A stretch of DNA of 64,000 bases from Liolophura sinensis (taxonomy: Eukaryota > Mollusca > Polyplacophora > Chitonida > Chitonidae), in contig NC_088303.1 in the NCBI RefSeq assembly GCF_032854445.1, positions 28,093,501-28,157,500 of the forward strand, given 5' to 3'. The notes under the pieces were generated by a model that saw only the letters and a list, made by a program, of their open reading frames with translations, was not told the origin of the DNA and searched no databases. Below are positions 34,001-61,500 of this stretch, piece after piece. How positions within the stretch are numbered: position 1 is the stretch's first letter; each line of letters starts with the position of its first letter. The translations under genes and the position numbers were made by a program.

Positions 34001-37000
34001 CATGAAGGGCCTAACAAATTCAGGTAAGGCCAGTTGATTTCCAAGCCAAGCTGCTGGCCTTTTGATTTGTGGGGCTTATTTCTACCCGTGTATTTTGATA
34101 TTTATGTCACTGGGAATACCCAAACATTTGTACACCACATATTAAAGCTTGGAATAACTGCATACTTTGTGGTACTAAAGTTGACCAAGATTTTGGCGAA
34201 TTTCAGCAAAGCGCATCTGTGGGAATCCATTTTGATTCTGATAAAAATTAAAAAATAAAGGCCTGGGGCGTGAATAGAAATTTTTAATGTTTTGAATATG
34301 GTAAGATGTACTGAGACACCATTTCAGAGGGTATATTTTGTATTTCACATTGATACATTGTGTGAAGAAAGCCACATAAAGCAATTTTTAATCCCTGCCT
34401 CTTTATCTCTTAAATGAGTATGGTTTACGTCTTTTTTTTTCGAAAAATTTGCCAGGCTAATGTGCACACGTAGATACAGTTGCACGCTGTCAGGATGCTG
34501 TAAAAGCTCAGGATGCTGTAAAATGGTTGGCATACACCCTGTTCCCAATGCCCAATCATTTCAAAGCTTCTCAGTTACTGCTTGTTGCGTTATACAGTGA
34601 CGCGCATGTGTTACGTCGAGTTTGTTTTATGCTATCGCACGGCAGTCAGCCAGTTCTATTCAGTAAAGCACCTCCACTGTTCATCTGGACTTGTCTTCTT
34701 CATTCTGAATGTAACACTGGTGATATGGAGGGATATGCGTCTCAGGTAAAGAAGTCTTTTGCGAAAGGAAGTAGTAAAGCACTGTTACTGGATCAAGCCC
34801 TTAGCACGCTTCGGTCTGCTCAATTTTATTTACAAATTCAAACAAAACTCAAGAGTCTCTTTGGCAGAAAAAATGGATTCCATGAATCCGCAGAAAATTC
34901 TCATCTCTGTAATATCATTTCTACATATATATACAAAATATTACAATTATAAGATACACTTCAAGTCAAATACTGGCCGTACATGAGAAGGCCTTCCAGC
35001 AACCTGCGCATGGCCGTGGATTTCCCACGGGCTGTACCCGGTTTCCTACCATGATGCTGGCCGCCGTAATATAAGTTTAATATTCGTTGGTATGATGCAA
35101 AACACAAAAAACAAATAAATAAATCAATCAATCAAATAATGTCATATAACTGTGCATGCATACCAGCTATGAGTGCTCACCTTTGAGAACATAAGCCACG
35201 TATTCACTGGCTCTGTGAGTGGTCACTAGGCTGCCCACGTAGCGCCGGTGTTCCCAGTCATAGTTCACCACAGGCACGATCTTCACCTGAAAAGGTGCAG
35301 TGAATTGTACAAAAATCAAAATAACATCAAAACTGTTTAATTAGTTGATATCTATTATCCAGTCAAGACACAGCACAAAGCGAATCTTTGTACGTTTCTA
35401 TCATGTCTGATTTTTTCATTTTGCTTTCTCGTTTGTCAGAGATTTTCTGTAAGAAAAACTCATTTTCAATTTAACAAATAATTTTTAGTTTGGCTTGTAA
35501 AAATTCGAAATCATGTAAAGGCTTTAAAATAATACTTTTGGTATTTTGGTAACATGTAAGTTTGTCTGATATGAAATTAATCAAACTTCACAAAAAAACT
35601 CTCTCTATAATAATGTGGATGAATTGCTCAGAGTTAAACAAAATATGTCCTTTTGAAAGCTAAACTTCAAGCGAAATACAGCAGTTGTTAACTGGCTTTC
35701 CCTGTGTTTCCCAAGTCCCTCTTACATGCCCCTAAGAGAACAGATTTACAATTGTTGTTTAGGATATTGTGGCGCACCTATATGAATACATTTTTGACTG
35801 GTAAGTGGTTCTTGGTTTACAATCCATGCATACTGTCTATTTAGGTATATATATTAGATTAATATTAGCCAACAATGCACTTCAATACTTCAATAATTAG
35901 AACAGATTTCAGAACTGAATTATTTTAGTATGACATTTCTGATTCAAACTTAACAACTGAGACAAATGAAGAACACAGAAGAGGACTTTGTACAAATACA
36001 GAAATAGCATTGTTGATGAATAAAAGTTCACCTGCTTCCTCCTCTGTCCTCCTAGGGAGCAGGGTTACAATATTTCAAAGTAAAGAGTTACCTTATTGCT
36101 TCCAGCAGAGGAATGGCTGACATTACTTGTACTACTAGCTACGATATCCACCTCCTTTCCATACACACTGAAACTGTTCACATTGTCGTCTCCTGTCAGC
36201 AAGCTGCAAAGTACCAAGAGCTGGAGATGAGACACTGTTATAAATATTACAGCTGGCCAGACTCACTTGCCGCAGTTATCTCCCATTATACCAGATCACG
36301 GTATCATTTTGTCACACCAAGAGGTATTTACAAGGAAAACAACAGATTCACCTGAAACTATTAACTATTGGTCAAAAAGGAGACATTGTTATGAAACTTC
36401 TTACAGACATATGAAGAGTAAAAATTCAAATTAAACTGTAATATATAATTATGCTATATACACTGATATCAAATTAGATTGTATGTCTTAAATCCTTCTG
36501 AGACTATGGTCTGACAGCAACCTGCGGATGTTCGCGGGTTTCCCCCAGGCTCTGCCCGCTTTCCACCCACCATAATACTGGCTGCCATCATATAAGTGAA
36601 AGATTCTTGAGTACGGCGTAAAACACCAATCAAATAAATAAGTAACTTCTGAGAATATGTCTTTGTTTAATTTTTCAATAACTTCTTATTTTATACACAC
36701 AAGAGAGAGATCAGTTCACAAAGGAAAAACATTTTCTGATCACATGTAACTGACAAGCATAATAAATTGTCACAAAATTCAGCCCCATAGAGTAACAGAA
36801 TGATCAAACGAAACTCTGAAACTATGAAGCTGAAACTTTCAAATCCAAACATCAAACAAATCAGCTACTTGAAAATAAAAAAATCAACCTTCCATTAGCA
36901 CAAAATTTAATTTAAAGGCAAAGACCACTCTGAAGTAAAGTATGTATCAGATGAAAGACCATTAAAACAGCTCAGGAATATTGTTGGATTTATCTTCTTT

Positions 37001-41942: not shown

Positions 41943-42154
41943 CACAGGCCATACTTTACACTTTACATTTCTCTATATCTGTGTTTGCCAGTTTCTTTCT
42001 GTATCCACTAAGTAAATATGTATAGCTTCCTGCGCTAACAACAACTGCAGTTGTTTTGCATGCACGTAGATATATCTAACCAGAGGTGACCACAGGTTAG
42101 ATCTGGACATCTGTTCAGATACATCCATCTGTGAAAACACAGTTAAACGTTTAA

Positions 42155-42697: not shown

Positions 42698-42766
42698 AGT
42701 ATTTATTACACGAATGTATCCATAAAAACCTATGAAAAACTTCCTCCAGGGTTTCTTATTAAAATG

Positions 42767-43040
42767 ATGGGGCCTCGGTGGCCGAGGGGGTTAGCACACC
42801 AGCGCGGCGCAGTGACCCAATAGCCTTCCACCAATGCGATTGCTGTGAGTTCATGACCAGGTCATGCTGGCTTCCTCTCCAGCCGTACGCAGGAAGGTCT
42901 TGCGGCAACCTGCGGATGGTCGTGGGTTTCCCCCGGGCTCTGCCCGATTTCCTCCAACCATAATACTGGCCGCCGTCACATAAGTGAAATATTCTTGAGA
43001 ACGGCGTAACACGCCAATGAAATAAATAAATAAATAAATA
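42767..43040 (+). mobile_element. SINE-A, full-length
   Basis: Head GGGGCCTCGGTGGCCGAGGG, B-box-like GTGAGTTCATGACC, a complete body and an AATA-repeat tail. The 10-bp target-site duplication TATTAAAATG is at 42757-42766 and 43041-43050. Confidence 0.92.
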
Positions 43041-43189
43041 TATTAAAATGCGCCAGGTGTTCGGGTAAAAATTGTTTAAAACAATCAATACCCGCATAGC
43101 CCTCAAAATGACACGTCTTCATATTCAGGTATGGTGATGTTGTGTGGTGAGAACCACAGCTGCCAGAGGCCCTGGCTCTCTCTTATTGC

Positions 43190-43470
43190 GTTAATGCGCT
43201 GACTCGTACGTGCTATTATCAGGCCTTTGCCAATGAGATCGCTTGTTCAAATCCATCTCTTGCTGATCCAAATCCGGCTTTAAATTGGATGGGGTTTTTT
43301 GGGTGCCCTGTCAAGGGCGGTGGTTTTCTGCGAGCACTCCGATTTCTTCATCCATAAATCTTAGTTGCCGGACCGTGATGCACGTCAGTGAAAATTTCGC
43401 CATTTAGCACAATCAAGTACATGTACGTAAATATATATAAAGAAGTGTTTAAAAAAGAACTTCCTGAATG
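43190..43470 (+). mobile_element. SINE-C copy
   Basis: tRNA-like start (TTAATGCGCTGACTCG, B-box-like GCTTGTTCAAATCC), body CAAGGGCGGTGGTTTTCTGC and tail TTTAGCACAATCAAGTAC. Inverted relatives lie at about 57740-57960 and 58210-58290. Confidence 0.65.
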
Positions 43471-44189
43471 TAAATACATATATAATTCATCTCCACCCTC
43501 GATCTGTGATCTGGTTCCAGGCTGAGTATGGTCAATCAATCAATTCAATCTTTCCTTGTATAAAAAGGAGCAAAGACAGACATCGTTTGTAACAACATCA
43601 TGAGTTTATTTCCCAAGACTGAAGACAGCAGAACGAAAATGTAGGAAAAGTGCATATGGAAGTGTGACCGGAGGCTCAGTATTCTCCATTGATTGTGTGT
43701 ATTCCAGGGCTAGTGACGATTATCCACGAATCCGACTCGCTGTCAACCCGAGCAGGTTTCCGAGGTCGGAAAAATGTGCTACAGCGCAGACGGTCTTATT
43801 CGGAAACCAGCCATACAAGTTCGTCTTAAAGCCGCAACATCTCAGTGCTAGGCTTTTATAAATCTATATCGAAACGAAAGAAAGTGCATTCTTTGTGTTG
43901 ATTTAATTCTGTTTTCTTCTTTTTTTTTCTTGCAGAAGTAATTTAACATGGTGACAAACTGGCTAATTGAAAGGGTATGGATTATGACAATAAATTACTC
44001 CACAATTGTATAGGCTATTTAAAAATGATTTTTGAGAACCGGTTGATTATTTACCCAAGGGATTTTCTGTGCGTTGAACTGTGAAATTTTACAAAAAATG
44101 TGGCTATCGAAAGTTTGTTGAAAACATACACCCTTCCCAGGTACAAACCACGCCCCTGTAGGTCACCTGATAGTACTAATAAACCACTT

Positions 44190-44430
44190 CCAGGCTGCCG
44201 CGTGCTGGACCAAGACGCTGTACATCAATGTTGATGCCTTGTCTAGGATCCAGCACCACATCAACCGGATGTCCTGGGACCGGACTCCCAGAAACTCCGG
44301 GTTCCCGTACGGGTCGACCCTGGACGACCAGGCCAGAGCTGACGCCGGAATGTTTAGTGTCGGGAATGTGACCCCCAGGGCGAGCCGGATCGCCTCAAAC
44401 GTCGTGGCCGCTGGCCCCAACAGAACTTGA
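44190..44430 (+). other. GC-rich block with open frame, unit 1
   Basis: Much more GC-rich than its surroundings. A plus-strand frame stays open from about 44191 to a stop at 44428-44430 and contains SRIQHHINRMSW and DDQARADAGMFSVGNVT. The minus strand is also open (VLLGPAATTFEAIRLALGV). I do not recognise either product. 44282-44403 is identical to 51592-51713 in unit 2. An acceptor-like CTTCCAG precedes it at 44186-44192. Confidence 0.45.
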
Positions 44431-45344
44431 TGGAGTCGCTCACTCCGTGCGTTTCCCTTACACGGAAAAAAGACATGGCGTAGACAAAACATGTTTTTAA
44501 CGTTGATCAGTGAGTTATTTTTGTGTTGACTAAACATATATAGTCCGTGCAAAGGCTCTGTATTATTTTCCATTAAGCTATTCTATAATACGAGATTTAA
44601 AAATATATCATTCAGCAATGATTTTTGTTATATTTTTTTATATATATAAAACCTATTACAGATTTTCATTTTATAAAATTCAAATGTGAAAATCGAGGCC
44701 TTAAATGATGGAATCTATCTGCGACCAATCAAAGGACAGATGTTTTGGAAGTTACGTGTTTGTATGCATGTGGTTGCATACACAACTGTGGTACAATACA
44801 CACGAGGAAGACTCACCTATTCCTTACATGTCTGATAAATATTTTCCCATCGTAGACAGGTGGTTTGAGCAACAAAGCCCTGCAGAAGTTGTTGTTACGG
44901 ACCTACAATATATAAAGGCAACACGGCTAAAATATTGGTTAATAATATATGTGTGAATTTATGTAAAACAGTAGCCAATGAATATTATTATAGGCCTACA
45001 TTTCTGATGTTGACAATGTTATGGATACCAATAAAGTCAAATCTAAAAGATGGTCAATGCTTGGTCTCCAAGAAGAACTTATGTTTTCTTGGCAGGGGAT
45101 TCTTGCCACTCGAAGATGCGCTTTTCTGGAATAGAAAACATGCATTAGGCCTAATTATATGCTAAAGCTCCGATTTATCGCTATAGTATACAAAAGGTTA
45201 GCTATGCGTTTGGTAAACGTTTCAATATAGACTTAAGGGAACCAAAAAAAAAAAGTCACAGAAGACCACATTTAAGACAGTGTATTCCCGGTTTTACTTT
45301 ACTACCGTACTTTACTTACCGAAATGAAAGACCTTGCTGGCTCA

Positions 45345-45535
45345 GGAGATTCGCTGCCAATGTCAGTGCTTGCTTGTCGCAGGCTCAAATCCAGCTCTCG
45401 CTACTTCGGGTGTTTAGGTCAGAAGATTTATCGGATGTCTGACGAAGGGTAGTGACCTACTCCGCGCACTTCTTCCTGAGACATAAACCTGAAAGCCGCT
45501 ATATAAGTGAAACATTCAAGAGCACCGTGTTTAAA
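45345..45535 (+). mobile_element. SINE-D copy (unit 1)
   Basis: B-box-like CAGGCTCAAATCCAG, then CGGGTGTTTAGGTCAGAAG, and a tail GCTATATAAGTGAAACATTC that closely resembles the SINE-A tail. The duplicate copy is at 53490-53705. Confidence 0.6.
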
Positions 45536-45654
45536 AAAATCACATCAGAAAAATTGCCACTTACTTTTTTCCCCTTTTCCTCGAAGCGATATCACTTTTA
45601 AATATTTTCTTCGTAATGGCTTTTCTGGAAAAGAAATTAAAATTGAACTCTTTG

Positions 45655-45945
45655 ATTTATTTGATAGTTGCAAAACGCCAAACTGAGGAATTATTCCCTT
45701 GTACGATGGTCAGTTTTATTGATGATGTCAAAAGCTGAGTGCCTGGAATAAACCAATGACTTTAGGCAAGTTAATGATACACTTCCCCCGCCTGTGACGT
45801 TTACAATTAAACATCCACGCCATATTGGTGGTAGACGATGGTTTCAACGAATGTAAAACTTCACAAATGGTCCCACAAGCACCGTCTATATACCCTATAT
45901 AGAGGTCTGTTGCCATCAAGGCCCCACAATGAGAGTAGGGAGAGA
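45655..45945 (-). mobile_element. SINE-B copy (unit 1)
   Basis: TTTATTTGATAGTTGCAAAA through CCATATTGGTGGTAGACGAT to CAAGGCCCCACAATGAGAGT. The orthologous insertion is in unit 2 at 53828-54115, so it predates the duplication. Confidence 0.75.
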
Positions 45946-46104
45946 ACAGCAATTTTCAAATGAACTAAGCACTGAATAGCACAAAACTCTTAATACTGCG
46001 AGCCTAGTAATAAATCACAATGAAAATAATCAAAACTAAACCTTAGAAAAATGACACAATCCAGTTTACTTAATCGTCTTAATCGTTTTGTGTCCTTCGT
46101 GTTT

Positions 46105-46235
46105 TTATTTATTTATTTGATTGGTGTTTACACCTACCCAAGATTATTTCACTTATACGATGGTGGCCAGGATTATCGTGGGAGGAAAGCGGGCAGAGCT
46201 CGGGGGAAAAACCCAAGACCATCCACAGCTTGCTG
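46105..46235 (-). mobile_element. SINE-A fragment (unit 1)
   Basis: TTTATTTATTTGATTGGTGT, then GGTGGCCAGGATTATCGTGG and CCATCCACAGCTTGCTGGC. Shared with unit 2 at 54276-54400. Confidence 0.75.
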
Positions 46236-46747
46236 GCTGAACATACCACGCAAGACCGGAGTTAAGTGTCCTTCATGTATACACTTGAGACCATGTGGCA
46301 GATCTATATTAGCAATGCATGTATAGTAAAACGGGTTTTCATTCAGAAGTACCTTTCACTGGTTTCAACTTGAGAAAAACATACAGATACCAAGCCAGGG
46401 TGAGCATGGCGAACTCTGGATCAAAGTAACCTGTAATAAAGAAAGGTAAACAATTTTTACAATTTACAATTGATCCTGAGTGCAATCAGAAGTTTTTTGA
46501 GGAGAGATTCAAACATATAGAGTAAGAAAAATAGAGAGCAAAGAAAACTTTGGTTAAGTTGCTTAACAGTAAATATATGAAATCCATTCAGAGAATATCA
46601 TTATTAATTAATTATATATGCGGGTCCTTTTACTAAATAACCAAGTTAACAATCAGATGTATTGGAGAGAATAGGCCATGGCTTTTATTACTAAAAGTAC
46701 GTTATTATCTCATGGTGATTGAATCCCCGTGGGTACTGATCGCCACC

Positions 46748-47640
46748 CTACGGGACACACTGTACATCCGTCCCCGATACCAGACTGCGAAATCGGGACC
46801 ACTGGGAACCGGATAAAACATCAGCAATCTGGTTATTCCTCCCACAAATACCCTTTACTGTTAAATTGAGGTGAAGACACCCCAACACAAATGCCGAACT
46901 AAGCTTATCACTCGTTAAGATTTGGATGTTTGGGATTTCCAACATTCAGAAGACCAACACCCCTGAGACCCGCGCTAACTGTTAAAAGTTGTAACTGATC
47001 AGATGTCAATCAAAATCTGTCGCTGAAAGTACACTTACCATTAAAATTCCTAAAAAAATCGTAGCCACATAGAGAGATCATCCTTAACCCCAGTGTTAAT
47101 CCGTACAAAATGGTTAGGTCAAGTTAATCCCATTGTAAGGTCTATCAGCATCTGCCTTAGCCAAGATACAACCAACTCCTAGCTCTTGAATAATGTCCAG
47201 GGCTCTATCAAATTTTGTGTACAAAGTTTAGAGTTTAGGATCTATAAAATCACTGACTGAACCCCCCTGTTAATATGTGATGGATCATCTAAAATTTACC
47301 AGGTTCTTTCTTTTCAACAAGGCCAAGGGGGAAATTCGAAGGGTGCTTATGGGTTGATCCATAAATGGGCCAGCTATTCTTCCAATTTTTGTTTCTTCAC
47401 TTTTTTTTATAACTAGATCTGGATTTTTCCTTGCCGACTTTACGTTAAGTGATTCCCTGGGGTTTCCAGGCCCTGTGTAACACAAACTGAAACCACATCT
47501 GAAGTCTTGAAGTAACTCTTGTTTGATACCGAAAAGTGGGTAGTTCCTTAGCCTATTCTGTAGAATGTCTACTTTAACTGGACTTTTTGCGAATTGAAAC
47601 AGTTGGTTGGGTCTTTGGTTAAGTCGCATTTTTGTGTTCA
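46748..47640 (-). mobile_element. Degraded tyrosine-recombinase-type (DIRS/Ngaro-like) retrotransposon fragment
   Basis: The minus strand at 47640-47060 reads as the start of a reverse transcriptase with stops and frameshifts: GFSLCYTGPGNPRES, IAGPFMDQP and ISPLAL, then, in shifted frames, SVSDFIDP, FDRALDIIQELGVGCILAKAD. It then jumps to the RNase H end: DDLSMWLRFF, later GICGRNNQIADVLSGSQWSRF. The catalytic palm between these is missing. The pairing of this RT with the IADxLSxxQWxRF signature is typical of DIRS-like elements in marine invertebrates; the exact family is inference. It lies inside the roughly 2.06-kb insertion unique to unit 1. Confidence 0.72.
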
Positions 47641-48168
47641 GTAATTAACGAAAAGCGTTGAGATGGGATCATAAACGTTAGCCAGAGTTCTGCATTAATA
47701 GTATCTCACGAATTATTAGGATGTCTTGCCTGGCGGATTCTGGACTGTTCATTATACAGCCTATAAGCTTCCTCTCTCAACCGACTAACTGCCGTCCGAA
47801 TAGTGTGCATGTATTTCAGAATTTCCTAGATTTTATGGTGAAATCTGGGCAAGTAAACGCTGGAAAATATTAAAATTAAAATATTAAAAAAATGAAAGTC
47901 CAGGCTCCAATAGAGTCAAGTTTTGACATGGATGGGCGAGGTTTCATTTCGAATTGTCCACTACTATTAACCTGCACCGATGCAACTCTAACGTGTACCT
48001 CAGTTCTTGATCGCCTTTCTGTAACAAACCCAATTCGATGTATTCGCTGCGCCAAATTTTTTCGCGCAGGAACACAGGGACGTGTGTAGAGTCACATATA
48101 CTCACTAGTTAAGTGTATTAGGTGGATCAAGTGAAGGAAACATTGAAGATGTTATATGAACAGGATTT

Positions 48169-48390
48169 GTGTTTCGAAACTCACCTGTGCCCGGTACGGC
48201 AGAGGTTTGCCCCGCTATTGGGAGGTCATGGGCAGGAAAGGTTATGGGAATCCCAGGAGGGGTCGTGACCCAGACCGCACGCAAAGCAGCATGGCGTCGT
48301 GTCGAGGTGGGTGGGCGGCGTGACGTGACTGCCCTACTCGTGTACGGGATCGCCGTGATCTACCAAATAAAAAAACACAGTGAGAACTAA
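48169..48390 (+). other. Unrecognised GC-rich open frame
   Basis: A 73-codon frame in a locally GC-rich stretch of the insertion in unit 1. It contains AWRRVEVGGRRDVTALLVYG, with a short hydrophobic run near the C terminus followed by a basic end. I do not recognise it. It may be an exon, a fragment of the neighbouring retroelement, or chance. Confidence 0.25.
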
Positions 48391-48679
48391 CGAAGACAGC
48401 AACAATTAATCTAACCACAAAGCCACCTTTATGTGCGAAAAAAACAATCCCAGACTGCTCAAGAACACAATTTTTTACAAACTAATTTTTCGTCGAACTG
48501 AACGGCTTGCATGAATTTTGGAAAGAGGCCGTTTGACCTATATTGCATCGCCACGTAGTGATTGTGCAGATTAAAGGGCGATAACTCTAGTGACCTTGAG
48601 TAAATAACAACAAACACCCGGCCGCCACACAAGGAATTAATCGTGTTTATTCCATAAGAGATAAACTTATCATTATTTA

Positions 48680-48850
48680 TTTATTTGATTGTTGCTTATC
48701 ACCATGCAAGATTTTGTTTTACTTATTCCAGACTTACTTTACTTATATACTTAATGGTGTTAAGTTTTATGGATAGATGAAATCGGACAACCGACCTTTG
48801 GCAGGCTACTGACGAACTTTCCCTCATGTGAACATGGATTCTTTGGGGTT
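48680..48850 (-). mobile_element. SINE-B fragment (unit 1)
   Basis: TTTATTTGATTGTTGCTTAT, GTTAAGTTTTATGGATAGAT and GACCTTTGGCAGGCTACTGA. The counterpart in unit 2 is at 54905-55030. Confidence 0.65.
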
Positions 48851-49481
48851 TGCCAAGTTAGATTTTGAATTATCATATCGCCACGATGTCTGAAATGGTG
48901 TCCTTTAACTTTTAAGAGCTCCAAATGTTGAGGACAAACCAAAGGTTGTAGCTCTAAATGTCAAATTCCTATCATGTGTTCAGCAGAAGATAGACACAGA
49001 AACGAGCACGTTTTAAACAAGTTCATCAACGCCCCAAGTCTTATGGACAAAAACTCTAGTTTGTTAGTATAGATGCCATAGTTAGTAAAGATAACTCATG
49101 TTAAAACCGTACAATGCTTAAATTATGTTCTCACTCATTATTAAAAAAGATATTTTTGAAAGCCATTGTGACATATAGGGATACACTTACAGTAAATGAG
49201 TTCAGGGGAAGTGACTCTGAATCCATTGTTTACACCCCTAGATTTATTCCCCCTGCCAACCCGTTACAAAAATAGGCATATTATTTCCGACAACTTTTTT
49301 GTTTTATTTTGAGCACTCTGGGAGAGTTACATTTGTGTAATTACCAAAGTTTATATAGGGGAAGCTTCATTTTAGTGTTAGGTCATGTCTGGTGCATACA
49401 AACGCCGCAAGTAACGGGATATCTGTTTTCACTTTAGTCCGTGTCCATAAATGTTGTGTAAGTAGTAATTTTAATAGGCAA

Positions 49482-50241
49482 CTGGGATGACGTCATCGGT
49501 CGAGAAAACTATGTCTGTAGCGGTCGCTGCATTTGCAGATGCGGTGGGGGAAATAAAACGGCTTGTTTGTCTATTTACAGGTAATGTACACCTTGAATTA
49601 TTTTTTAACAATATTGCAAAACGTATTTTGATGAATCTTGTTTCAAGTTTAAGTGATGAGTAATGGAGATTTTCAGATGATGTAAGTGTAGAAATCCAGC
49701 TATCTACTAGCGTGTTCACATGTCGCGCGCGTTAACTGCACAAAGCCTAAATGTAGAGTGGACCAACCATAACTTTTTATTTTGACAGAAAATATTTTCT
49801 TGTAACCTATACGAAACAATTTCCATTAGCAGAGTAGTAATATTTCTTAAACATAGTATTTATTATAGAGTAAATGAAACTCACAACTCCAATATATGGC
49901 AAACCTGACGTATTAAAAATCTACGGAAACCCGTAGGCCTACACATCATACCTATGCTACCTAAATGCCGTAGCCTATATGTTTTTGTAATGCTAGTAAC
50001 GATCTTAGAATAGTATGGAATTAGTCATATTGTTTTGAATGTATGGAAGCACATAACAGAACAATATCAAAAGGCATGGTTTTTGAACATATTTTATTAT
50101 TTTCATTTGTCCATTTTCCATCAAAGTAAAAACGAAAACTCTAATTGGATGACGCCATCGCTCTATCGAACTATATTCGTAGACGTTGCTGTATTTGTTG
50201 ATGCGGTGGGGTAATAAAGCGCTATGTTTGTGTGTTTACAG
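49482..50241. repeat. Pair of about 100-bp direct repeats
   Basis: 49482-49581 and 50142-50241 share TGGATGACGYCATCG, a GTTGCTG/GTCGCTGCATTTG core, GATGCGGTGGGG and an end in TTTACAG. They bracket about 560 bp of unique AT-rich sequence. Confidence 0.6.
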
Positions 50242-50398
50242 GCCATTACAGACCTCTAGTTCCTCCTTACAACACACAACCCCATCCCGGAACAAGGAGA
50301 CATCATTAAATTTCGTGAATAATCCCAGGTAAAGCTGGCATGATCATAATCATGGATGGCAATGGCTTTAAAGTGAAGCAGCAAAAGCAAAGAGGAGC

Positions 50399-50679
50399 AT
50401 AACCATTTCACAAGCATTTCAACTATTCAAAGCTGACTATCTTGAATGTGCAGTGGGGAAATCGTCATTTGCTTCTCTTCGGCCAAAATTTGTGCTTCTT
50501 AGATCACAAATGCCACACAAATAACATGCTATTTTTGCTAGATGGTGCATAGAAAGTGTCCGTCCATACTATTATATTCGAAAGCAGTATTCTTCTGTGA
50601 TACAGAATGGGAGGCATGCATGCCAAGCCGTTGCGATATATATACTAATGGAAAACCACTTGACAGATGGCTTGGATGA
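50399..50679 (+). pseudogene. Relic of a transposon-associated gene, unit 1
   Basis: Reads FKADYLECAVGKSSFASLRP followed by KFVLLRSQMPHK and an in-frame stop. In another frame it continues CDTEWEACMPSRCDIY and LDRWLG. I recall the pattern of GKSxFxxLRPxxV.L.S.MP followed by a Cys-rich CDxxSExCMxxxC segment from uncharacterised, transposon-like proteins abundant in cnidarians and molluscs. The stop and frame shift show it is not functional. Confidence 0.5.
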
Positions 50680-51489
50680 TAAGAATGGTAATCTTGGCAC
50701 GCAGATCCATACCAAGTTAAAGGCCAAAAAGAAGTCAAGGTCGATGATGCAGTGAGAAATATCCGTAATCAATTACCAAGGTTCCTGTGGTAAACTGTCT
50801 CGTTTGTAACAACAAGATCGCAAGATCGTATGTAACAACATGATGAGTTTATTTCTCAAGACTGACAGCAGAATGAAAGTGTAGGAAAAGTGCATATGGA
50901 TCTGTGTGGTCGATGGCTGAGTATTCTCCCCTTAATGTGTGTATTCCAGGGCCAGTGACGATTATCCACGAATCCGACTCGCTGTCAACCCCAACAGGTT
51001 TCAGACATCGGAAAAATGTGCTACATCGCAGACTTATTCGGAAACCAACCATACAAATTCGTCTTAAAGCCGCAATATTCCAGTGCTAGGCTTTTATAAA
51101 TGTATATTGAAACAAAAGAAAGTGCATACTGATTTAATTCTGTTTTCTTTTTTTTTCTTGTGGAAGAAATTTAGCAAGGTGACAAACCGGTATGGTCAGC
51201 GGAAGGCTAATGGGAAGGGTATGGATTATGACAATAAATTACTCACTCGACAACTGTATAGGCTATTTAAAAACGATTTCTAAGAACAGGTTGATTATTT
51301 ACCCAAGGGATTTTTTGTGCGTTGAACAGTGAAATTTTGCAAAAAATGTGCTATTAAAAGTTTTTTGAAACATACACCCTTCCCAGTACACGACCAATGG
51401 CGTAAGGGCCCCAGCGTGAACCATACAGGACATTAGTAACCTGTTCGGTATGAACCACACCCTTGTGGGTCACCTGATAGTACCAATAA

Positions 51490-51735
51490 GCCACCTCCCG
51501 AAGGCGGCAGCGTGCTGGACCAAGATGCTTTATATCAATGTTGATGCCTTGTCTAGGATTCAGTACCGCATCATCCTTATGTCCTAGGATTGGACTCCCA
51601 GAAACTCCGGGTTCCCGTACGGGTCGACCCTGGACGACCAGGCCAGAGCTGACGCCGGAATGTTTAGTGTCGGGAATGTGACCCCCAGGGCGAGCCGGAT
51701 CGCCTCAAACGTCCTGGCCACTGGCCCCAACAGAA
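51490..51735 (+). other. GC-rich block, unit 2 copy
   Basis: Counterpart of 44190-44430. The plus-strand frame is broken by TAG at about 51586, while the following 122 bases (51592-51713) are identical to unit 1. The product, if any, is unrecognised. Confidence 0.45.
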
Positions 51736-52875
51736 TTTGATGGGGTCGCTCACTCCGTGCGTTCCCCTCAAACGGAAAAGAGACATGAAGTAGACAAAAT
51801 ATGTTATTAACGTTGATCGTGTGTTAATTCTGTGTTGTACATACACAGTCCGTGTATAAAAGCAAAGGCTCTATATTATTATCCATTAAACTATTCTATA
51901 ATACGACAATTAAAAACACATCATTCAGCAATGATTTTTGTTGTCGTTTTTTCATATGTAAAACTTATCACAGACTTTAATTTTATGAAATTCAAATGTG
52001 AAAATCCAGGCTTTAAATGATGGAATCTGTCTGCGACCATGGAAGCGACAAATGTTTTGGATGATACGTGTTGGTATGCATGTGGTTGCATACACAACTA
52101 TGGTACAATACACACGAGGAAGACTCAACCTAATTTGAACTTTGATATGGAATTCATGCCTGGAATATTCGTTGTCTGCCCAGCATCATTGAAAACTGAT
52201 GACCGCTTCTCACCTGTGTGTTACCGGCTTTATTTCTTATATACCTTTGTCTGTGGCAGTTAGTGTTAAACGTTGTTTTGGAAATGGATCTTGCGATTAT
52301 CGACTTGGAACGCCTTTCACGGACTACGAATGGTATATGAATGTCGGACTTGACGCTTATATTTACATGTTTGATAAATATCTTCCAATCGATGACAGGT
52401 GGTTTGAGCAACAAAGCCCTGCAAAAGTTGTTATTACAACATGGACCTACAAGATATAAAGACAACACAACTAAAATATTGGTTAATTATATATGTGTGA
52501 ATTTAAGTAAAACAGTAGCCAGTGAATATTATTATACGCCTACATTTCTGATGTTAATGTTAAGGATGCCAATAAAGTCAAATCTTAAAGATGCTTGAAG
52601 TCGCCAAGAAGAACTTACATTTTCTTGTTTTATATTGATGATTAAGGTGTTAAAACTTTCTGTTATTGTATATCTACAAGTTTTCTTAAATATTCTTTGT
52701 AAATTTTTCTTGTATATTACGTAGCAAAATGTGGATTAAAGACTTGAATCGAAGGATTAAGAACCATCCCAGGGATACTGACGGGTAACCAAGCCCAAGC
52801 CGAACAAGGCTGACAGACTTAGTTCAAACTTGTCTCGAACTTGTATCTGAGTTAACATGGATAACCGAGGCTCAT

Positions 52876-52996
52876 CCAATCAGTGAACGAGGCAAGTATC
52901 TTTAAAAACCAGTTCGGCATGGTATAAAAGACCGATCGTTCTGGCTGAAGTAACTTCATTTCATTACTGATTGGAAACCCTGTGTTGTTTAGGTAA
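52876..52996 (+). promoter_or_regulatory. Candidate Pol II promoter with leader exon
   Basis: In order: CATCCAATCAG (CCAAT box), GGTATAAAAGACC about 45 bp later (TATA box), then a short leader ending TGTTTAG followed by GTAAGTAAG, a strong donor consensus. The spacing suits a TATA promoter plus first exon. It is present only in unit 2. No downstream coding exon could be identified. Confidence 0.4.
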
Positions 52997-53203
52997 GTAA
53001 GTCAGATACTGATTAACTCGCCAGCTCTCATTTAAGATTATGTTTTATAAAGTACAGTATACAACACGTATACGAATATACACATTTATACCGCACATTA
53101 TTGTTACAATTATGGCATTTGTAAATTTTGAATTATATATATATATATATATATATAAATCAACTTCATTTCATTACTGATTGGAAACCCTGTGTTGTTT
53201 AGT
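52949..53203. repeat. Direct repeat of the leader exon around an AT microsatellite
   Basis: About 42 bp (ACTTCATTTCATTACTGATT, then GGAAACCCTGTGTTGTTTAG) occurs at about 52950-52991 and again at about 53162-53203. Between them lies an (AT)n run at 53137-53157. The first copy is followed by a donor-like GTAAGTAAG, the second by TATTTCAG, which is acceptor-like. Confidence 0.8.
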
Positions 53204-53489
53204 ATTTCAGGCCATTACCATTATAACTCGGTCCGAACTACAAAATACTTGGCAGCGATTCTTGCCACTCGAAGATGCGCTTTCCTGGAATAGAAAACAT
53301 ACATGTAGCTTTAGCATGCCTAATTGCATGCTAAAGCTCCGATTTATCGCTGTACTATACGAAGGGTTAGCTATGCGCTTGATAAACTTTTCAATATAGA
53401 GTTAGGGGAACAAAAAAAAATGTCACAGAAGACACTGATGGCAGTTTATTCCCGGCTTTACTTTGCTACCGTACTTTGGAAATGAAGGA

Positions 53490-53705
53490 TCTTTTTGGCT
53501 CAGGTGATTCGCTCATTCGCTGCCAACGTCAGTGCTGGGACCAATGATGTCGCAGGCTCAAAACCAGCTCTCGCTACTTCGGGTGTTTAGGTCAGAAGAT
53601 TTATCGGATGTCTGACTAAGGGCGGTGAGCTACTCCGAGCACCTCTGTTTGGTCAGACAAAACCTGAAAGCCGTCATATAAGTGAAACATTCCTGAGAAC
53701 CGTCA
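53490..53705 (+). mobile_element. SINE-D copy (unit 2)
   Basis: CAGGCTCAAAACCAGCTCTC, GGTCAGAAGATTTATCGGAT and tail GTCATATAAGTGAAACATTC. Same insertion as 45345-45535. Confidence 0.6.
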
Positions 53706-53827
53706 TAAAGAAAATCACATCAGAAAAATTGCCACTTATTTTTGTCCCCTTTTCCTCGAAGCGATATCACTTTTAAATATTTTCTTCGTAATGGCTTTTC
53801 TGGAAAAGAAATTAAAATTGAACTCTT

Positions 53828-54115
53828 TGATTTATTTGATTGTTGCAAAACGCCAACTGAGGAATTATTCCCTTATACGAAGATCAGTTTTATGAATGAT
53901 GTCAAAAGCTGAGTGCCTTGAAAATACCAATGACTTTTGGCACGTTACTGATACACTTTCCCCGCCTGTGACGTGTACATTTAAACATCCACGCCATATT
54001 GGTGGTAGACGATGGTTTCAACGAATGTAAAACTTCACAAACGGTCCCACAAGCACCGTCTATAAACCCCACATAGAGGCCTGTTGCCTTCAAGGCCCCA
54101 CAATGAGAGTAGGGA
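53828..54115 (-). mobile_element. SINE-B copy (unit 2)
   Basis: TTTATTTGATTGTTGCAAAA through CCATATTGGTGGTAGACGAT. Same insertion as 45655-45945. Confidence 0.75.
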
Positions 54116-54275
54116 GAGAAAATCAGTTTTCAAATGAACTAAGCACTGAATAGCACAAAACTTAATACTGCAGGCCTAGGAATAAATCACAATTAAAATA
54201 GTCAAAACTAAACCTTACAAAAAATGACACAATTTAGTTTACTTAATCGTCTTGATCGTTTTGTGTCCTTCGTGT

Positions 54276-54400
54276 TTTTATTTATTTATTTGATTTGTAT
54301 TTACACCTACCCATGATTATTTCACTTATACGATGGTGGCCAGGATTATGGTGGGAGGAAAGCGGGCAGAGCCCGGGGGAAAAACCCAAGACCATCCACA
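54276..54400 (-). mobile_element. SINE-A fragment (unit 2)
   Basis: TTTATTTATTTGATTTGTAT, GGTGGCCAGGATTATGGTGG and CCATCCACAGCTTGCTGGC. Same insertion as 46105-46235. Confidence 0.75.
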
Positions 54401-54904
54401 GCTTGCTGGCTGAACGTACCACGCAAGACCGGAGTGTCCTTCATGTATACCGTTGAGACCATGTGGCAGAACTATATGAGCAATGCATGTATATTAAAAC
54501 GGGTTTTCAGTCAGATGTACCTTTCACTGGTTTCAACTTGAGAAAAACATACAGATACCAAGCCAGGGTGAGCATGGCGAACGCTGGATCAAAGCAACCT
54601 GTTATAAAGAAAGGTGAACAATTTTTACAATTTACGCCTGTTTTTGCTGACTTTTAGTTTGATTCTTTCTTATTTGTATGTTTATAATTTGTAACTTTTA
54701 TTTCTGTTAGATGTTAATTTATTTATTTTCGTCAGATTCTTATATTGACATGTAATAATTTTCATCAATGACATTAAATCTCAGGTTTGTGGTAAGACCT
54801 ATAGGGTAAGAAACAAAATAAAGTGCAAAGAAAACTTTGGTCAAGTTGCTTAACAGTCAATATACTAAATCAAGAAGAGAATATTATCATTAATTATCAT
54901 TTTT

Positions 54905-55030
54905 TATTTATTTGATTGCTGCTTATCAGCATGCAAGATTTTCTTTTGCTTAATCCGGATGGTGTTAAGTTTTATGGGCGGATGAAATCGGACAACCGAC
55001 CTTGGGCAGGCTACTGACGAACTTTCCCTC
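54905..55030 (-). mobile_element. SINE-B fragment (unit 2)
   Basis: TTTATTTGATTGCTGCTTAT, GTTAAGTTTTATGGGCGGAT and CAGGCTACTGACGAACTTTC. Same insertion as 48680-48850. Confidence 0.65.
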
Positions 55031-55543
55031 ATGTGACCCTAAATTCTTTGGGGTTTGCCAAGTTAAATTTTGAATTATCATATCGTTACGATGTCTGAAA
55101 TGGTGTCCTTTAACTTTTCAGAGCTTCAAATGTTGAGGACAAACAAAAGATTGTAGCTCTAAATGTCAAATTCCTGTCACGTGTTTAGCAGAAGATAGAA
55201 ACAGAAACGAGCACGTTTTAAACAAGTTCATCAACAGCGGTGTCCGAAATCTTATCCGTGAAAAATTCAAAGATTTTGCTATAGTTTGTTAGTATAGATG
55301 CCATAGTTAGTAAAGATAACTCATGTTTAAACCGTGCAATGCTAAAACTATGTACTCACTCATTATTAACAAAGATAAGGGTGGTCTTTGCAACCCACTT
55401 CAAACCAATAAGTAACAAAATTATCGGCCATGTATTGACGATCTTCATCCTTGACGGAATACAGGCACGTCACTATCAACTAGAATTCAGTGTGTATGTC
55501 GAATGCGGTATATTTTTTACTCCCTTTGGGTGGCGTTAGTGTA

Positions 55544-55720
55544 AAGCAGGATCTTGCGCCATTGTTACGTCAAAATACGATAGTTGCTCAACGTTTACAA
55601 TGTTGCAGAGTGCTATATTAGTTTCTGCTGTAACGTCGTTCTGTCTTTATTATGACAGAATAATGATAAACTCGGAAACGAACGTTTGACGTCAGTAAAA
55701 TGGCATCAAGATCCTACTGC
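55544..55720. repeat. Foldback element, about 177 bp
   Basis: Left arm 55544-55574 (AGCAGGATCTTGCGCCATTG, TTACGTCAAA) and right arm 55685-55720, which inverted reads GCAGTAGGATCTTGATGCCA. The arms agree at most positions. It lies in the part of unit 2 with no counterpart in unit 1. Confidence 0.7.
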
Positions 55721-56185
55721 AGGGCGTTTGACAGGTCCCCATTCATCATGACTGACATATCCTCAGTTTTTCAGATGTATAACCGTTACTGTTCTGTTTG
55801 TGCGTAGCTTTGTGAAGCCACAGTGGTATATATTGCAATGTCAAGTCCTAGCGTCGAAGCGTCACAAAACGCTTTCATACACGATACCCCATGTTGACAG
55901 GCTTCCCCTGCTGTGAACGTATTACTATTTATAAACGACCAATTCTAGGGCCAATTCTGACATTTAAGGTACGAAGAGTGCTCCAGGGAACCAGACTATT
56001 TGTCGCCTTGCTGCCAGAAAGGCTGATACTGCTCAATAGGCTTCTTACTTAGCTGATATTGGACATCCTAACATGATTAAATAAAGATGATGTTTACAGA
56101 CTCTCGTGAATGACGTAGTCTATATTCATGTGAACATACAGAGATACAAGACAACATATATACAGTAAGAGAGTGAGTTTGATAA

Positions 56186-56212
56186 CGATGTAAGAACCTA
56201 CATCGAAACGTC
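56186..56212 (+). repeat. Hairpin followed by GAAAC-GTC
   Basis: A perfect 7-bp stem CGATGTA / TACATCG with a 6-base loop, then AAACGTC. It resembles a degraded catalytic core of the hammerhead-like motif found at ends of some Penelope-like elements, but the CTGATGA part is not intact (TTGATAA). Function unproven. Confidence 0.35.
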
Positions 56213-56649
56213 ACCAACACAATAAATCCAGGAATTGTTATCCATAAGTAATGCCTCTGTCAATCTACACCATCCCAATTTCTAAATGCCTCTGAAAGAA
56301 GCTATATCCATGTAGCAGCAACACTGGCCAATTATGAAACGCCGACAGGGGCAGCAACACCTGACATATGTCCTCAAACATTTGGGTGGGAAAAATGTAA
56401 AGTGGGGAGGTTCTTGCCCGTCAGTCTACACAAAGGACTGACAGTTATTACGTGACTGTATGGCTTGACGTTATTTGTCAGTGAAGTTTACAATATATCG
56501 AAGCACGAGAAGAGATGACAGCACAAAATTCGCAGAAGCGGAATTTTTGAAAGCCACTAAATTTTGTGAATACAACCAGGTAAAGCTGGCATGATCATTA
56601 TCACAGACGACAATGGCCTTGAAGTGAAGTAACAAAAGCAAAAAGGAGT

Positions 56650-56934
56650 ATGACGATTTCAGACGCATTTCAACTATTCAAAGCTGACTATCTTGAATGT
56701 GAAGTGGGGAAATCGTCATTTGCTTCCCTTCGGCCAAAATTTGTGCTTCTTAGATCACAAATGCCATACAAATAACATGCTATTTTTGCTAGAGGGTGCA
56801 TACAAAGTGTCCGTCCATGCAATTATATTCAAACGCATCATTCCCGTGTTTGTGATACAAAATCAGAGGCATGCATGTTAAGCAATTGCGATATATATAC
56901 TGATGGAAAACAACTTGACAGATGGCTTGGATGA
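56650..56934 (+). pseudogene. Relic of a transposon-associated gene, unit 2
   Basis: Opens with an ATG and reads FKADYLECEVGKSSFASLRP, KFVLLRSQMPYK, then one in-frame stop, then continues in the same frame to VCDTKSEACMLSNCDIY and LDRWLG-stop. Better preserved than the unit 1 copy: only one stop interrupts 94 codons. Family recognition is from memory of the motif pattern and should be tested. Confidence 0.5.
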
Positions 56935-57119
56935 TAAGAATGGTAAGCTCGGCTCGTATCAATGACAGACAGACGCAGACCGATACCTAGTTAAAGGCCA
57001 GTAAGAAGGCAAGGTCGATGATGCAATGAGAAATACCCGTAATCAATTAGCAAGGTTCCTGTAGCATGTATTCATTAAGGGCAAACAGCCTCAATTTTAT
57101 GAGTAAGATAAAAGTAATT

Positions 57120-58290
57120 TGCAAATTGCAAAACAAGCATATATCCGCATAATGGAATTGCATGAAATGACATAACGCATTCATATTCAGGTATGACGAT
57201 GTTCATATTGTGTGGTGAGGAATACATCTTCTGGAGGCTCTCTTTTAAGGTTAATGCGCTGACTCGGTGTGATTATCAGATCATTGGGCAATGAGGTTTA
57301 TTGACGAATCCGGCTCGCTGTCAATCCGAACGGGTTTCCGATGTCGGCAAAAATGTGCTACAGTAGAGACAGCGTTATTCGGAAACCAATCACAGGAGTT
57401 GGTCTTGTTCGGGTTGACAGCGAGCCGGGTTCGTGGATTATCGTCCCTGGTCCTGCAATACAGAACATTCAGCGGAGAACACTCAGCTTCCGGCCACACA
57501 TATCTATGTACTCCTTCAATTTCATTATGCTGTCTTCAATCTTGAGAAATAAACTCATTATGTTCTCATCAACGATGTTTGTCATTGGTAATTTTTTTAC
57601 CGAACTGAATATATAGACTGAATGAACTGGTTGACGGATTGATTGGTAGTACTCAGCTTGGAACCAGATCACAGTTTGAGGGTAGAGATGTATTATAGTC
57701 ACATTTATGTGTTCAGGCAGTTTCAGTATCGGGAGATTTTGTAAGAGACTTCTTTTGTTTATTTCATGTAAATGTACTTGATTGAGCTAAATATCGTTTT
57801 CATGAAATTTTTACTTACGCGCATGACAGTCGGGTAACTGAGGTTAATGGATGAAGAAAATCAAAGTGCCTCCCCAGAAAACCACCGCCCTTCACACGGT
57901 ACCTATAAACCACCCGATTTAAGGCGACATTTCAATCAGCGAGAGCAGCCCATGAGACAGCGTGGGCCTCCGCCAGATGCATTCCTCACCACGTAACACG
58001 AGCATCTTCATACATGAATATGTGAGTGCGTTATTTCATTTCGAGCAATTGTGTTATGTGGATAATGATTCAGAACGGACACTGGGCGGTTGATTGGTTG
58101 ATACTCAGTTTAGAACCAGGCCACAGGGTAGAGGTGTATTTTATATCTGTATTATTCCGGTGATTTCAGTAACGGGAGAGTTTTAAAGATATTTATTTTT
58201 TTTAATATTACATGTTTGATTGCGTTTAATGCCGTGAAAGTAGGGTAACTAAGATTTATGTGTGAAGGAAATCAGTTCTGTCTTGTATAA
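57120..58290. repeat. Partial third unit joined to an inverted copy of the unit start
   Basis: 57120-57295 is a direct copy of 43110-43250. 57295-57345 is a direct copy of the element around 43706-43760. 57410-58050 is an inverted copy of about 43110-43760, including SINE-C (57740-57960 inverted). 58090-58290 is a further inverted fragment of the same tail and SINE-C. The junction near 57345-57410 is therefore a head-to-head inverted repeat. Confidence 0.75.
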
Positions 58291-58505: not shown

Positions 58506-61500
58506 TTAAACAAAGTTCTTTTTATTATTACAGCTATCATGTCCGTTTGTCAGCGCTTCAGAGTCTTTGGCGTTCAAATGTAGTTCTGTATCCGTAGGTT
58601 TTGTGAGCAGTGCCCATTCTTGGACATTTCCTCGGACAAGAGTCCCGAATACCAAAGCACCAAGCATCGCCACGCCTGCGCACAGAAAGAACACCAGCTG
58701 CCATTCTTCTTGAGTTTTCTGAAACAAAATATATTTGTTTGACCATGAACATGTATACGATCAAAGCTATACCTTATATGGTTTTGAAAAAGAAATGCTA
58801 AACGAGTAAACTGGCTTTCGATTCAAACGAAAGCTACAAATTGACTGATTGGTGTGTGACTCCGTGCTCAAGAATTCTTCACATATACGAAAGCGGTCAG
58901 GTCATGTTTATGAGTGGTGAAAACCGGAGTGCCGGGAGACCCACTGATCTTTCTCAGGCTTCTGTCAAACCTCTGGGCATAGTCAAAGCAGAGAGAATGG
59001 TATTTTAATATGCAACCTCACTGGTTAAAGACATTCTCCAGCAAGGTCCATTGTTTTATGAAGTAGACTTGCAACACTTTCAATAGACACATGATAACAA
59101 ATTGCACCCTGTGAAAGCGGCTTAACGGGGGCCCTAGACTAAGCATATGCGAACACTTTATTCGAAATTTCTAATCGGTTAATACTGGCTTCTCGTAAGT
59201 TTCTGCAGCAAATCCCTTCTTGGCACAAGTAGGCCTCCCAAATAGCCTTCCTAAGGAACCTATACGATTTTGTCCCCCAAAAAACGCCTCTTGGCAGGTA
59301 ATTTAAAGTAACCGCCAATGGAGATGATTGAAACGTGTGAAAAAGGTCTAAAGGTGAGAAAAATAATCTGATATATACTCGTGTACTCAATTTATCTGAA
59401 AGTCAAATATTTCTTAAAACCTGTTACCGTGTTATTCTAAATCCATGCGTGTGGGGCAAACTCTCTGAGTCGATGCATTGAACACAACTTGTCATCCGAA
59501 TGTGCACTACTGTTGCAAAGTCCTCTATTGTGAATTGGAACGCAAGACTTATTATTACCAAAAGTACTTCCATTTATAGACAATTGCTTGTGTTCCATTC
59601 TTGTAGAAATAATAAATGAAGGGTTTAAAGTGAAATGTCTTACATATATGCCGGGCAAAGGTGACTACTGTTTGAGGACGACGCAAAAATGAAACCATTA
59701 GTTCTATACTAACGCATCAAATTACACAAAAATGTTATTAATCTATTGCATTTTAATCCGTATTCATCCTTTCCTAAACTTCCACTCTTCCACTCCTACA
59801 TACAGAGAGATATGCCAACCAGTCCGAGGCGGGCAATTCTAATACCCCCCTTCCACCCGCAAGCCAACGTTTTACTTTTTCATCCAGACTGTAACTTGCT
59901 ATTCAGACAACACTTATGCACCTTTTTTGGAAGAGTACAACTTGGCTAGTCCTTCACAAGTGCAAGTCTTGTCAAGATGCCATCAATCATATCACATGTC
60001 GACATGCTTTATGGTGACTGTCCGTACTATGCCTCCTAGGCTAAAGAATCAACATGTGTGTGTGTTAGAATTGACAGTATTCTGATCTCAATAAGCGGGC
60101 GACAAGTTATTTCCCGCAATTCCTCATTATGGTGTTGCCTATTTGTAGACAACATCATCATCGCTTCAATAGCTAGTCAGACTGGACGGAGTACAGACAG
60201 CCAGTGGCATGCTTATTTTTATGTTCATCTGTCAATGCTTGTAAGTGGTCTACCATATAAATAAATCAAGGCCTGGGTTTGCCTGGTTATAAATACTTAC
60301 GTTTGGAGTAAGCGCTCCACTCACTAAGGGTGTGACCATACCCGGGATTGTCGCCACTGTGTTAGTGATACCGTACAACTCTCCAGCGAATCTGTCAAGG
60401 TAAAGGTAATGTTGAACCAGCAAGAAAACACCAGGCTCCAGTGCTCGTTTTAATCAGGCAACTTGAGACAAGTAATAAATTGCAGGTGATTAAGAAAGAC
60501 AAACCGAGAACAAGAAAGAACTCAAATTATTGTAGGTACATTGTTCTGCAGTAAGGAATCAGTGATTTTTTTTTTTTTTTTTTTTTTTTGATTGGTGCTT
60601 TACGCCGTACTCAAGAATATTTCACTTATACGACGGCGGCCAGCATTATGGTGGGTGGAAACCGGGCAGAGCCCGGCGGAAACCCACGACCATCCGCAGG
60701 TTGCTGGCAGACCTTCCCACGTACGGCCGGAGAGGAAGCCAGCATGAGCTGGTCTTGAACTCACAGCGACCGCATTGGTGAGAGGCTTCTGGGTCACTAC
60801 GCTGCGCTAGCGCGCTAACCGACTGAGCCACGGAGGCCCCAGGAATCAGTGAACAATTTGTAAACTTCCAAGAGCAAAACATTTTTTTTTGTAGTTTTGT
60901 TTGAATATTACGTCTTAAGACGTTTGAGAAACAAGGACCCAGGTTTCTATTTTCTACGGTTTTCGAGTACCTTCTGAGTTTCGCGTTTACAACGTCCAAA
61001 TTGTGCACTTATTCGCTTGTTTGCTAAATATTATCTTATACATTTTGATGCATAAAACATTGAACATGTGCTTACGGAAAAATCTATCAGCCATAATCAG
61101 TTTTTTTATCGTTTCCAAAGACATGTTGATGCCCTTAAGGAATATATTGGCAAATTTCATTGTTTTTGTTTTGCAGAGTGAGAAATGACCAGTTTCAGCC
61201 TCTTGGGAATGACGTTAATCAACGAGACATTTCAGCACGCACATTTTAAAGGGTACTTTTTTTGGAGATAAAAACGACAGAAGAGTAAGAGGAATTAGAA
61301 TTGTATTGATTTTAGTTGGTATACCGAAGACTTTCAGTTCAAAAATCCTCTCCAGCATTGTCACGAGTTAATTTTTTGGACTTCTATGCCAAGCGCATTT
61401 TGATGATTGTTAAGAGACTATCGCGTCGACTAGGCGACAAGGTGTTAGTGATAGCTCGTCTTGCTTTCTGGCAGGCTGAAATGGACATAACCATTCATCA

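Follow-up and report, generated by a model that had tools for sequence, protein, structure and literature searches.

An old, probably non-coding tandem duplication flanked by EDC4 and a sialin-like SLC17 gene in Liolophura sinensis

Kilobase-scale copies lie side by side between two genes of the mollusc Liolophura sinensis, raising the question of whether they are a duplication of the genome, an artefact of its assembly, a pair of mobile elements or a pair of genes. We analyzed a window of 64,000 nucleotides (NC_088303.1, positions 28,093,501 to 28,157,500) in which EDC4 lies to the left and a sialin-like SLC17 gene to the right of the array, both on the minus strand. A query joined from the frames 35170-35340, 32298-32519 and 29826-30017 matched the Pfam family Ge1_WD40 (2.3e-39), and the SLC17 neighbor matched sialin chains (1e-59), in agreement with the gene identities originally assigned. 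The C-terminal pieces of EDC4 gave no Pfam family at the cut-off, and the candidate first exon (40139-40303) gave no Pfam family, so the identity of EDC4 rests on Ge1_WD40. A PDB search with the C-terminal pieces gave no EDC4 chain; its best match, a phycobilisome protein (E 6.8e-05), had no stretch that passed and was rejected.

35170..35340, minus strand: most upstream EDC4 piece within the Pfam match (Ge1_WD40 joined query)
58509..58760, minus strand: frame of the last SLC17 exon, sialin-like (sialin chain match)

Self-BLAST revealed seven collinear direct blocks at 83-89% gapped identity, with E-values down to 0. These blocks bear out the collinear diagonals expected of a self dot-plot and support the original prediction of a local tandem duplication between EDC4 and SLC17. 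The limits of the two units were set by exact edge words, including TCGTTTGTAACAACA at 43583 and CAAGGTTCCTGT at 50777, each of which occurs twice in the 64 kb, at both unit starts or at both unit ends.

43582-44145 / 50825-51390, direct: collinear block 1
44140-44819 / 51447-52132, direct: collinear block 2
44824-45091 / 52363-52627, direct: collinear block 3
45088-46467 / 53248-54635, direct: collinear block 4
46513-46610 / 54797-54896, direct: collinear block 5
48667-49152 / 54894-55377, direct: collinear block 6
50304-50788 / 56555-57062, direct: collinear block 7
43583..50788, plus strand: unit 1 of the tandem duplication (collinear blocks, edge words)
50789..50799, no strand: 11-bp junction of units 1 and 2 (exact edge words)
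50800..57062, plus strand: unit 2 of the tandem duplication (collinear blocks, exact edge words)

The two direct units thus stand as predicted, with their limits corrected from 43110-50800 and 50805-57060; the predicted start at 43110 is not the start of unit 1, since 43110-43582 (~0.47 kb) has no counterpart in unit 2. The 11-bp join contains no N. Adjacent, direct, collinear copies of at least 1 kb are one mark of a tandem segmental duplication, and units 1 and 2 show it: they are a genuine direct duplication.

Between the units we counted 344 differences in 3801 chosen, alignable columns (9.05%, or 90.95% identity); these columns make up 53% of the first unit and 61% of the second, the rest being private to one unit. 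Ungapped identity per block was 89.1-92.3%, and K80 distances were 0.081-0.119 in all six blocks measured; the divergence is even across blocks. In 38 windows, differences per 100 columns had a mean of 9.0 and a variance of 11.4, an overdispersion so mild that we rejected it as a sign of conserved blocks. The longest run identical between the units is 122 bp. A published figure for homologous recombination, from mouse cells in culture, is 132-232 bp of perfect identity (PMC1352149). Because the units differ by 9%, leave 39-47% of each unaligned and share no identical run as long as this, their divergence appears to disfavor copy-number variability of the array.

The following segments occur in one unit only:

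46611..48666, no strand: ~2.06 kb, unit 1 (self-BLAST; 18-bp direct repeats, 89% alike, on both sides)
49166..50303, no strand: ~1.14 kb, unit 1 (CATT at either edge; flanks align once the segment is omitted)
51386..51446, no strand: 61 bp, unit 2 (unit alignment)
52130..52361, no strand: ~231 bp, unit 2 (unit alignment; no GT-AG placing)
52627..53247, no strand: ~620 bp, unit 2 (CTTG at either edge; no GT-AG placing)
54651..54794, no strand: ~145 bp, unit 2 (unit alignment)
55379..56543, no strand: ~1.16 kb, unit 2 (unrelated to 49166-50303)

A 2-kb insertion in unit 1 (2.06 kb, at about 46611-48666) and two smaller segments in unit 2 (~231 and ~620 bp) had been predicted and are present; the two unrelated ~1.15-kb segments and the 61- and 145-bp segments of unit 2 had been overlooked. 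The 18-bp repeats around 46611-48666 are possibly a target-site duplication, and we found no Pfam family within that segment. The sites of 49166-50303 and 55379-56543 lie 13 bp apart within shared sequence; we rejected the idea that these segments are versions of each other, as their matches were at chance level only (E 0.076 and above). We likewise rejected the 231- and 620-bp segments as introns lost from unit 1, as their best placings on both strands lacked GT-AG.

The ends of the array contain these pieces:

43069..43582, plus strand: left end piece (counterparts at the right end; none preceding 50800 at the start of unit 2)
57123..57406, plus strand: third direct piece, partial (counterparts of 43069-43276 and 43707-43827, joined)
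57406..58070, minus strand: inverted end piece (corresponds to 43257-43754 and to part of the left piece)
58090..58274, minus strand: another partial repeat of that inverted piece (corresponds to 57639-57863)

The left end matches the right end both directly (43069-43276 / 57123-57328) and in inverted orientation (43257-43754 / 57945-57406), and 57135-57406 forms an imperfect palindrome with the inverted piece. Across aligned columns, the right-end pieces (57123-58274) share 75-85% identity with the left end. In short pieces (116-164 columns), identity is 81-85% between the right-end copies and units 1 and 2, compared with 90-92% between the two units over the same stretches. Because it is more diverged than the units are from each other, the right end seems to be an older layer that arose in a separate event. 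A third partial unit and an inverted end piece exist as predicted, while their assignment to the same array is not supported, given this lower identity and apparently greater age.

We identified one SINE fragment at the same position in both units:

46104..46261, plus strand: SINE fragment of unit 1 (96.2% identical to 54277-54434)
54277..54434, plus strand: SINE fragment of unit 2 (counterpart of 46104-46261)

This pair is 96.2% identical, compared with 74-85% to 10 other copies from the window, and the top identity among the remaining 65 pairs of the 12 sequences is 90.2%. This SINE was inserted before the duplication. The claim that three insertions (SINE-D, SINE-B and SINE-A) are common to the units and predate their duplication is solid for this one and weak for the other two: SINE-like sequences at approximately 45655-45872 and 48668-48812, with their unit-2 counterparts, match other places in the window weakly (62-76%), and a reversed-query control gave one match at an equal E-value limit. 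A dispersed repeat of ~270 bp has many copies in the window (e.g. 42768-43038 versus 60841-60571), and an ARAGORN search found no tRNA. This repeat may resemble SINEs of molluscs such as MetaSINEs or V-SINEs. Families of this kind are common in bivalves (PMC10294476).

Unit 1 contains 30 frames of at least 60 aa, 17 of them comparable with unit 2 and 13 without a counterpart there. A frame change or stop interrupts 13 of the 17, which together carry 217 nonsynonymous and 60 synonymous differences (overlapping frames counted separately). The other four (60-75 aa) can be read through in unit 2 as a single open frame:

44179-44394, minus strand: frame open in both units
44183-44368, plus strand: frame open in both units
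45731-45955, minus strand: frame open in both units
46083-46262, plus strand: frame open in both units

In a neutral simulation that takes frames as independent, 0.65 frames stayed open on average and four did so in 13 of 2000 runs; these four are not independent, because 44179-44394 and 44183-44368 overlap each other and the 122-bp tract, and 46083-46262 lies largely inside the SINE. Their 42 nonsynonymous and 8 synonymous differences do not look like protein constraint. Six-frame Pfam scans of the array, with X at each stop, gave no family at the curated cut-off, a negative that is weak for short exons because the identical scan missed real SLC17 exons. We rejected Iron_permease in the array (E 0.0068; 16.7 bits against a cut-off of 25), Colicin_im in the SLC17-side scan (below cut-off) and the best PDB matches of array frames (E 0.33 and 0.93). 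Single array frames matched no Pfam family, their 16 and 25 pattern matches to viral contigs yielded 0 confirmed, and Rfam found no family in the array. So far, nothing in the array clearly points to a gene or function.

The 122-bp run is a GC-rich tract:

44282..44403, no strand: identical 122-bp tract, unit 1 copy (GC 0.64; identical in both units)
51592..51713, no strand: identical 122-bp tract, unit 2 copy (alignment to unit 1)

An identical run of 122 was attained in 13 of 5000 column shuffles, and the remaining 550 columns of the block hold 71 differences (12.9%). Among 63878 windows of the same length, 131 are as GC-rich as the tract, and the two GC-richest in the 64 kb overlap its two copies. 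This identity hints at conversion or constraint. One could read the units as a decayed or living tandem pair of protein or non-coding-RNA genes with the tract as an exon or regulatory element, particularly as two of the four open frames overlap it, but we consider this quite improbable: would-be silent sites in the tract are identical too, stops closely flank it in unit 2, its frames have no relatives in Pfam, viral contigs or the PDB at convincing E-values, no Rfam family matches it at E up to 1, and its fold is not unusual (z 0.8 and 1.0). There is a slim chance that the tract, upstream of EDC4, works as an enhancer, insulator or functional RNA or still undergoes gene conversion, having been duplicated together with the unit and preserved while its surroundings decay.

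Sharp unit ends could also mean that a large non-autonomous transposable element inserted twice, side by side. Helitrons start with TC after A and end in a CTRR-type motif; unit 1 begins with TC directly after A, and the similarity of the first 80 bp of unit 2 to the reverse complement of its last 80 bp was equalled in 19 of 500 shuffles, a marginal result. However, the same terminal-repeat test is at chance in unit 1 (260 of 500), no CTRR-type end occurs at 50788 or 57062, neither unit is flanked by an exact target-site duplication, and the inverted copy runs past the left edge of the unit into 43257-43582. Elsewhere in the window (49 kb), only SINE and weak (62-76%) matches and no further whole copy were found, and no transposase, RT or Rep family reached the Pfam cut-off. 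We consider such insertions highly improbable. If a single locus had two strongly diverged alleles that were assembled in tandem, the same geometry of unit starts and ends would result, and this error is documented in polymorphic genomes: in the Ciona savignyi assembly, the predicted-contig-overlap class comprised 395 tandem allele misassemblies with a median length of 3.5 kb (PMC1868934). Against this stand the 11-bp join without N and the right-end copies, which point to other duplications at the site. In addition, 9.05% divergence with 39-47% of each unit private exceeds the allelic differences of the most polymorphic animals, roughly 5-8%; our literature search found no printed heterozygosity figure for such animals. 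We therefore regard a misassembly as unlikely.

We favor, at a probability of about 0.77, an ancient tandem duplication of low copy number that is probably non-coding. In an earlier step, the unit's left end would have given rise to copies on the right side, both direct and inverted, which now form a palindromic scar; 6-7 kb of the sequence separating EDC4 from the sialin-like SLC17 gene would then have been copied head-to-tail, perhaps by template switching in replication or unequal exchange. Both units may since have evolved without function, drifting to about 9-10% divergence while gaining or losing separate 0.06-2 kb segments. The array looks like real yet ordinary genome turnover, a clean example of local duplications that seem to lie in layers between two animal genes, and carries little weight alone; the palindrome at its end flags a site of apparently repeated duplication. 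Such a duplicated stretch can mislead short-read mapping and haplotype purging.

Among known systems, the array shares adjacent direct copies of several kb with tandem allele misassemblies (PMC1868934), but its divergence seems too high, its join is gap-free and it has extra copies at its right end. It resembles local tandem segmental duplications (low-copy repeats) in its adjacent, kilobase-scale direct copies that carry earlier repeats. In cattle, 75-90% of segmental duplications lie in local tandem clusters, according to a study with thresholds of 1 kb or more in length and 90% or more in identity (PMC2796684). Compared with duplications catalogued at 90% or more, the array shows 83-89% gapped and 89-92% ungapped identity and large private segments, and for these reasons it falls at or below the usual catalogue limit and is older than "recent" duplications.

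Self-comparison of the window (64000 bases, no N, A+T 61%, CpG observed/expected 0.56) revealed a tandem duplication between EDC4 and an SLC17 gene, in which the direct matches form a single collinear chain of seven BLAST blocks. The original prediction of collinear direct units is confirmed; its description needs corrections, such as the addition of further private segments (stretches present in one unit only), and its interpretation is supported in part.

Features of the array (window coordinates)
43583-50788, unit 1, 7206 bp, with exact edge words
50800-57062, unit 2, 6263 bp, with exact edge words
44282-44403 (unit 1) and 51592-51713 (unit 2), GC-rich 122-bp tract, identical in both units
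44179-44394, 44183-44368, 45731-45955 and 46083-46262, frames open in both units
about 46611-48666, unit-1 private segment, 2.06 kb, 18-bp direct repeats (89% identity) near its edges
about 49166-50303, unit-1 private segment
55379-56543, unit-2 private segment, near-equal in length to 49166-50303
about 61, 231, 620 and 145 bp, other unit-2 private segments
57123-57406, right end, direct piece, shortened copy of 43069-43276 plus 43707-43827
57406-57945, right end, inverted copy of 43257-43754
57966-58070, right end, inverted counterpart of 57135-57238
58090-58274, right end, repeats part of the inverted piece; holds minus-strand AATAAA/ATTAAA words (58192-58230), downstream of the SLC17 coding part

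The units are separated by 11 bp and differ at 344 of 3801 chosen aligned columns (~9%). These columns represent 53% of unit 1 and 61% of unit 2, outside the private segments and the middle part that cannot be aligned, and the 9% applies to them alone. K80 distances for the six larger blocks are 0.081-0.119. The longest identical run is the 122-bp tract, a length reached in 13 of 5000 shuffles; the remainder of its block shows 12.9% differences, and its two copies overlap the two 122-bp windows with the highest GC content in the 64 kb. Neither its frames nor its fold offered a clue; gene conversion, a conserved element or chance could each explain the identity.

The 2.06-kb segment had been recognized previously, and the unrelated pair 49166-50303 and 55379-56543 had gone unreported. 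Compared on both strands, these two show only chance-level similarity. TTTTTGAAAGCCA borders its segment on the left in unit 1 and on the right in unit 2, with no third site in the window, and the flanks align when both segments are omitted, indicating two distinct insertions, or a reciprocal pair of deletions, at points 13 bp from each other. Lost introns, considered for the 231- and 620-bp segments, were ruled out by the GT-AG rule.

Three SINEs had been proposed to predate the duplication. For one fragment this holds on sequence comparison: its copies at equivalent places (46104-46261 and 54277-54434) are 96.2% identical, against 74-85% to 10 other copies and 90.2% for the best of 65 other pairs. 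The two further SINE-like stretches are possible only, because their matches elsewhere reach 62-76% and a reversed-query control gave one hit at equal limit. Outside the array, another element occurs twice in inverted orientation (36913-37294 and 42151-42698); its right copy appears to be split by a SINE (about 42360-42491), a nested insertion.

Thirty unit-1 frames, each 60 aa or longer, were compared with unit 2, ignoring gapped codons, which makes the comparison somewhat lenient. Thirteen lack a counterpart; of the 17 comparable frames, 13 carry a frame change or stop and four (60-75 aa) are open in both units. A simple neutral simulation gave a mean of 0.65 open frames and at least four in 13 of its 2000 runs, so the observed number exceeds expectation. 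These four fall in just three locations, among them the SINE and the 122-bp tract, and their nonsynonymous:synonymous ratio of 42:8 speaks against protein constraint. Over every frame, with overlaps counted, nonsynonymous differences number 217 and synonymous ones 60, the former being in excess in 17 of 17. Six-frame Pfam scans of the array found no family at curated cut-offs, by a method that also missed real SLC17 exons, and Rfam and tRNA searches returned no match.

Both neighboring genes lie on the minus strand, so that the array is 5' of EDC4 and 3' of the SLC17 coding sequence. Joined EDC4 frames (35170-35340, 32298-32519 and 29826-30017) match Pfam Ge1_WD40 at 2.3e-39. The SLC17 gene is sialin-like: its exon frames, joined from 63177 down to 58509, match PDB sialin chains at 1e-59 and, less strongly, vesicular glutamate transporters (4.6e-43 to 7.2e-42). 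Some 235 bases lie between the end of the array and the final SLC17 exon frame, and the SLC17 transcript may end inside duplicated DNA.

Elsewhere in the window, an 11-copy array of a 63-bp unit (3547-4239, 89% match) is open in both directions, with a minus-strand frame of up to 266 codons. Tandem duplications at 25501-25717 (108 bp x 2.0, 100% match) and 17043-17411 (192 bp x 1.9, 98%) are probably young, since their copies are very similar. Minisatellite-like arrays occupy 27267-27710 (period 95 bp), 21874-22264 (118 bp) and 10694-11179 (46 bp).

The right end (57123-58274) contains an imperfect palindrome (57135-58070) with arms 78-82% complementary. Its pieces are 75-82% identical to the left end of the array (from 43069 into the start of unit 1) and 81-85% identical to unit 2 where a counterpart exists; at those places the units share 90% and 92% identity. 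The right end is therefore likely older than the pair, short of proof because the three-way comparisons are short (116-164 columns). In the rest of the window, matches to the end pieces are weak: 53-159 bp at 63-74% for the left one and 79 bp at 65% for the right one. That the left end recurs in direct, shortened and inverted form would be consistent with recurrent template switching during replication; the unit pair would have arisen by template switching or unequal exchange. Two adjacent transposon insertions are a less probable origin: we found no exact target-site duplication, the terminal repeat scores no better than chance for unit 1 and marginally for unit 2, and the homology of the inverted copy runs beyond the left unit edge.

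The main rival to duplication is misassembly of two alleles in tandem, an error described in Ciona savignyi (PMC1868934). Ongoing instability through homologous exchange is not favored, because no identical run exceeds 122 bp and the requirement in cultured mouse cells was put at 132-232 bp of perfect identity (PMC1352149). As a duplication, the array is another, ordinary example of a well-known kind.
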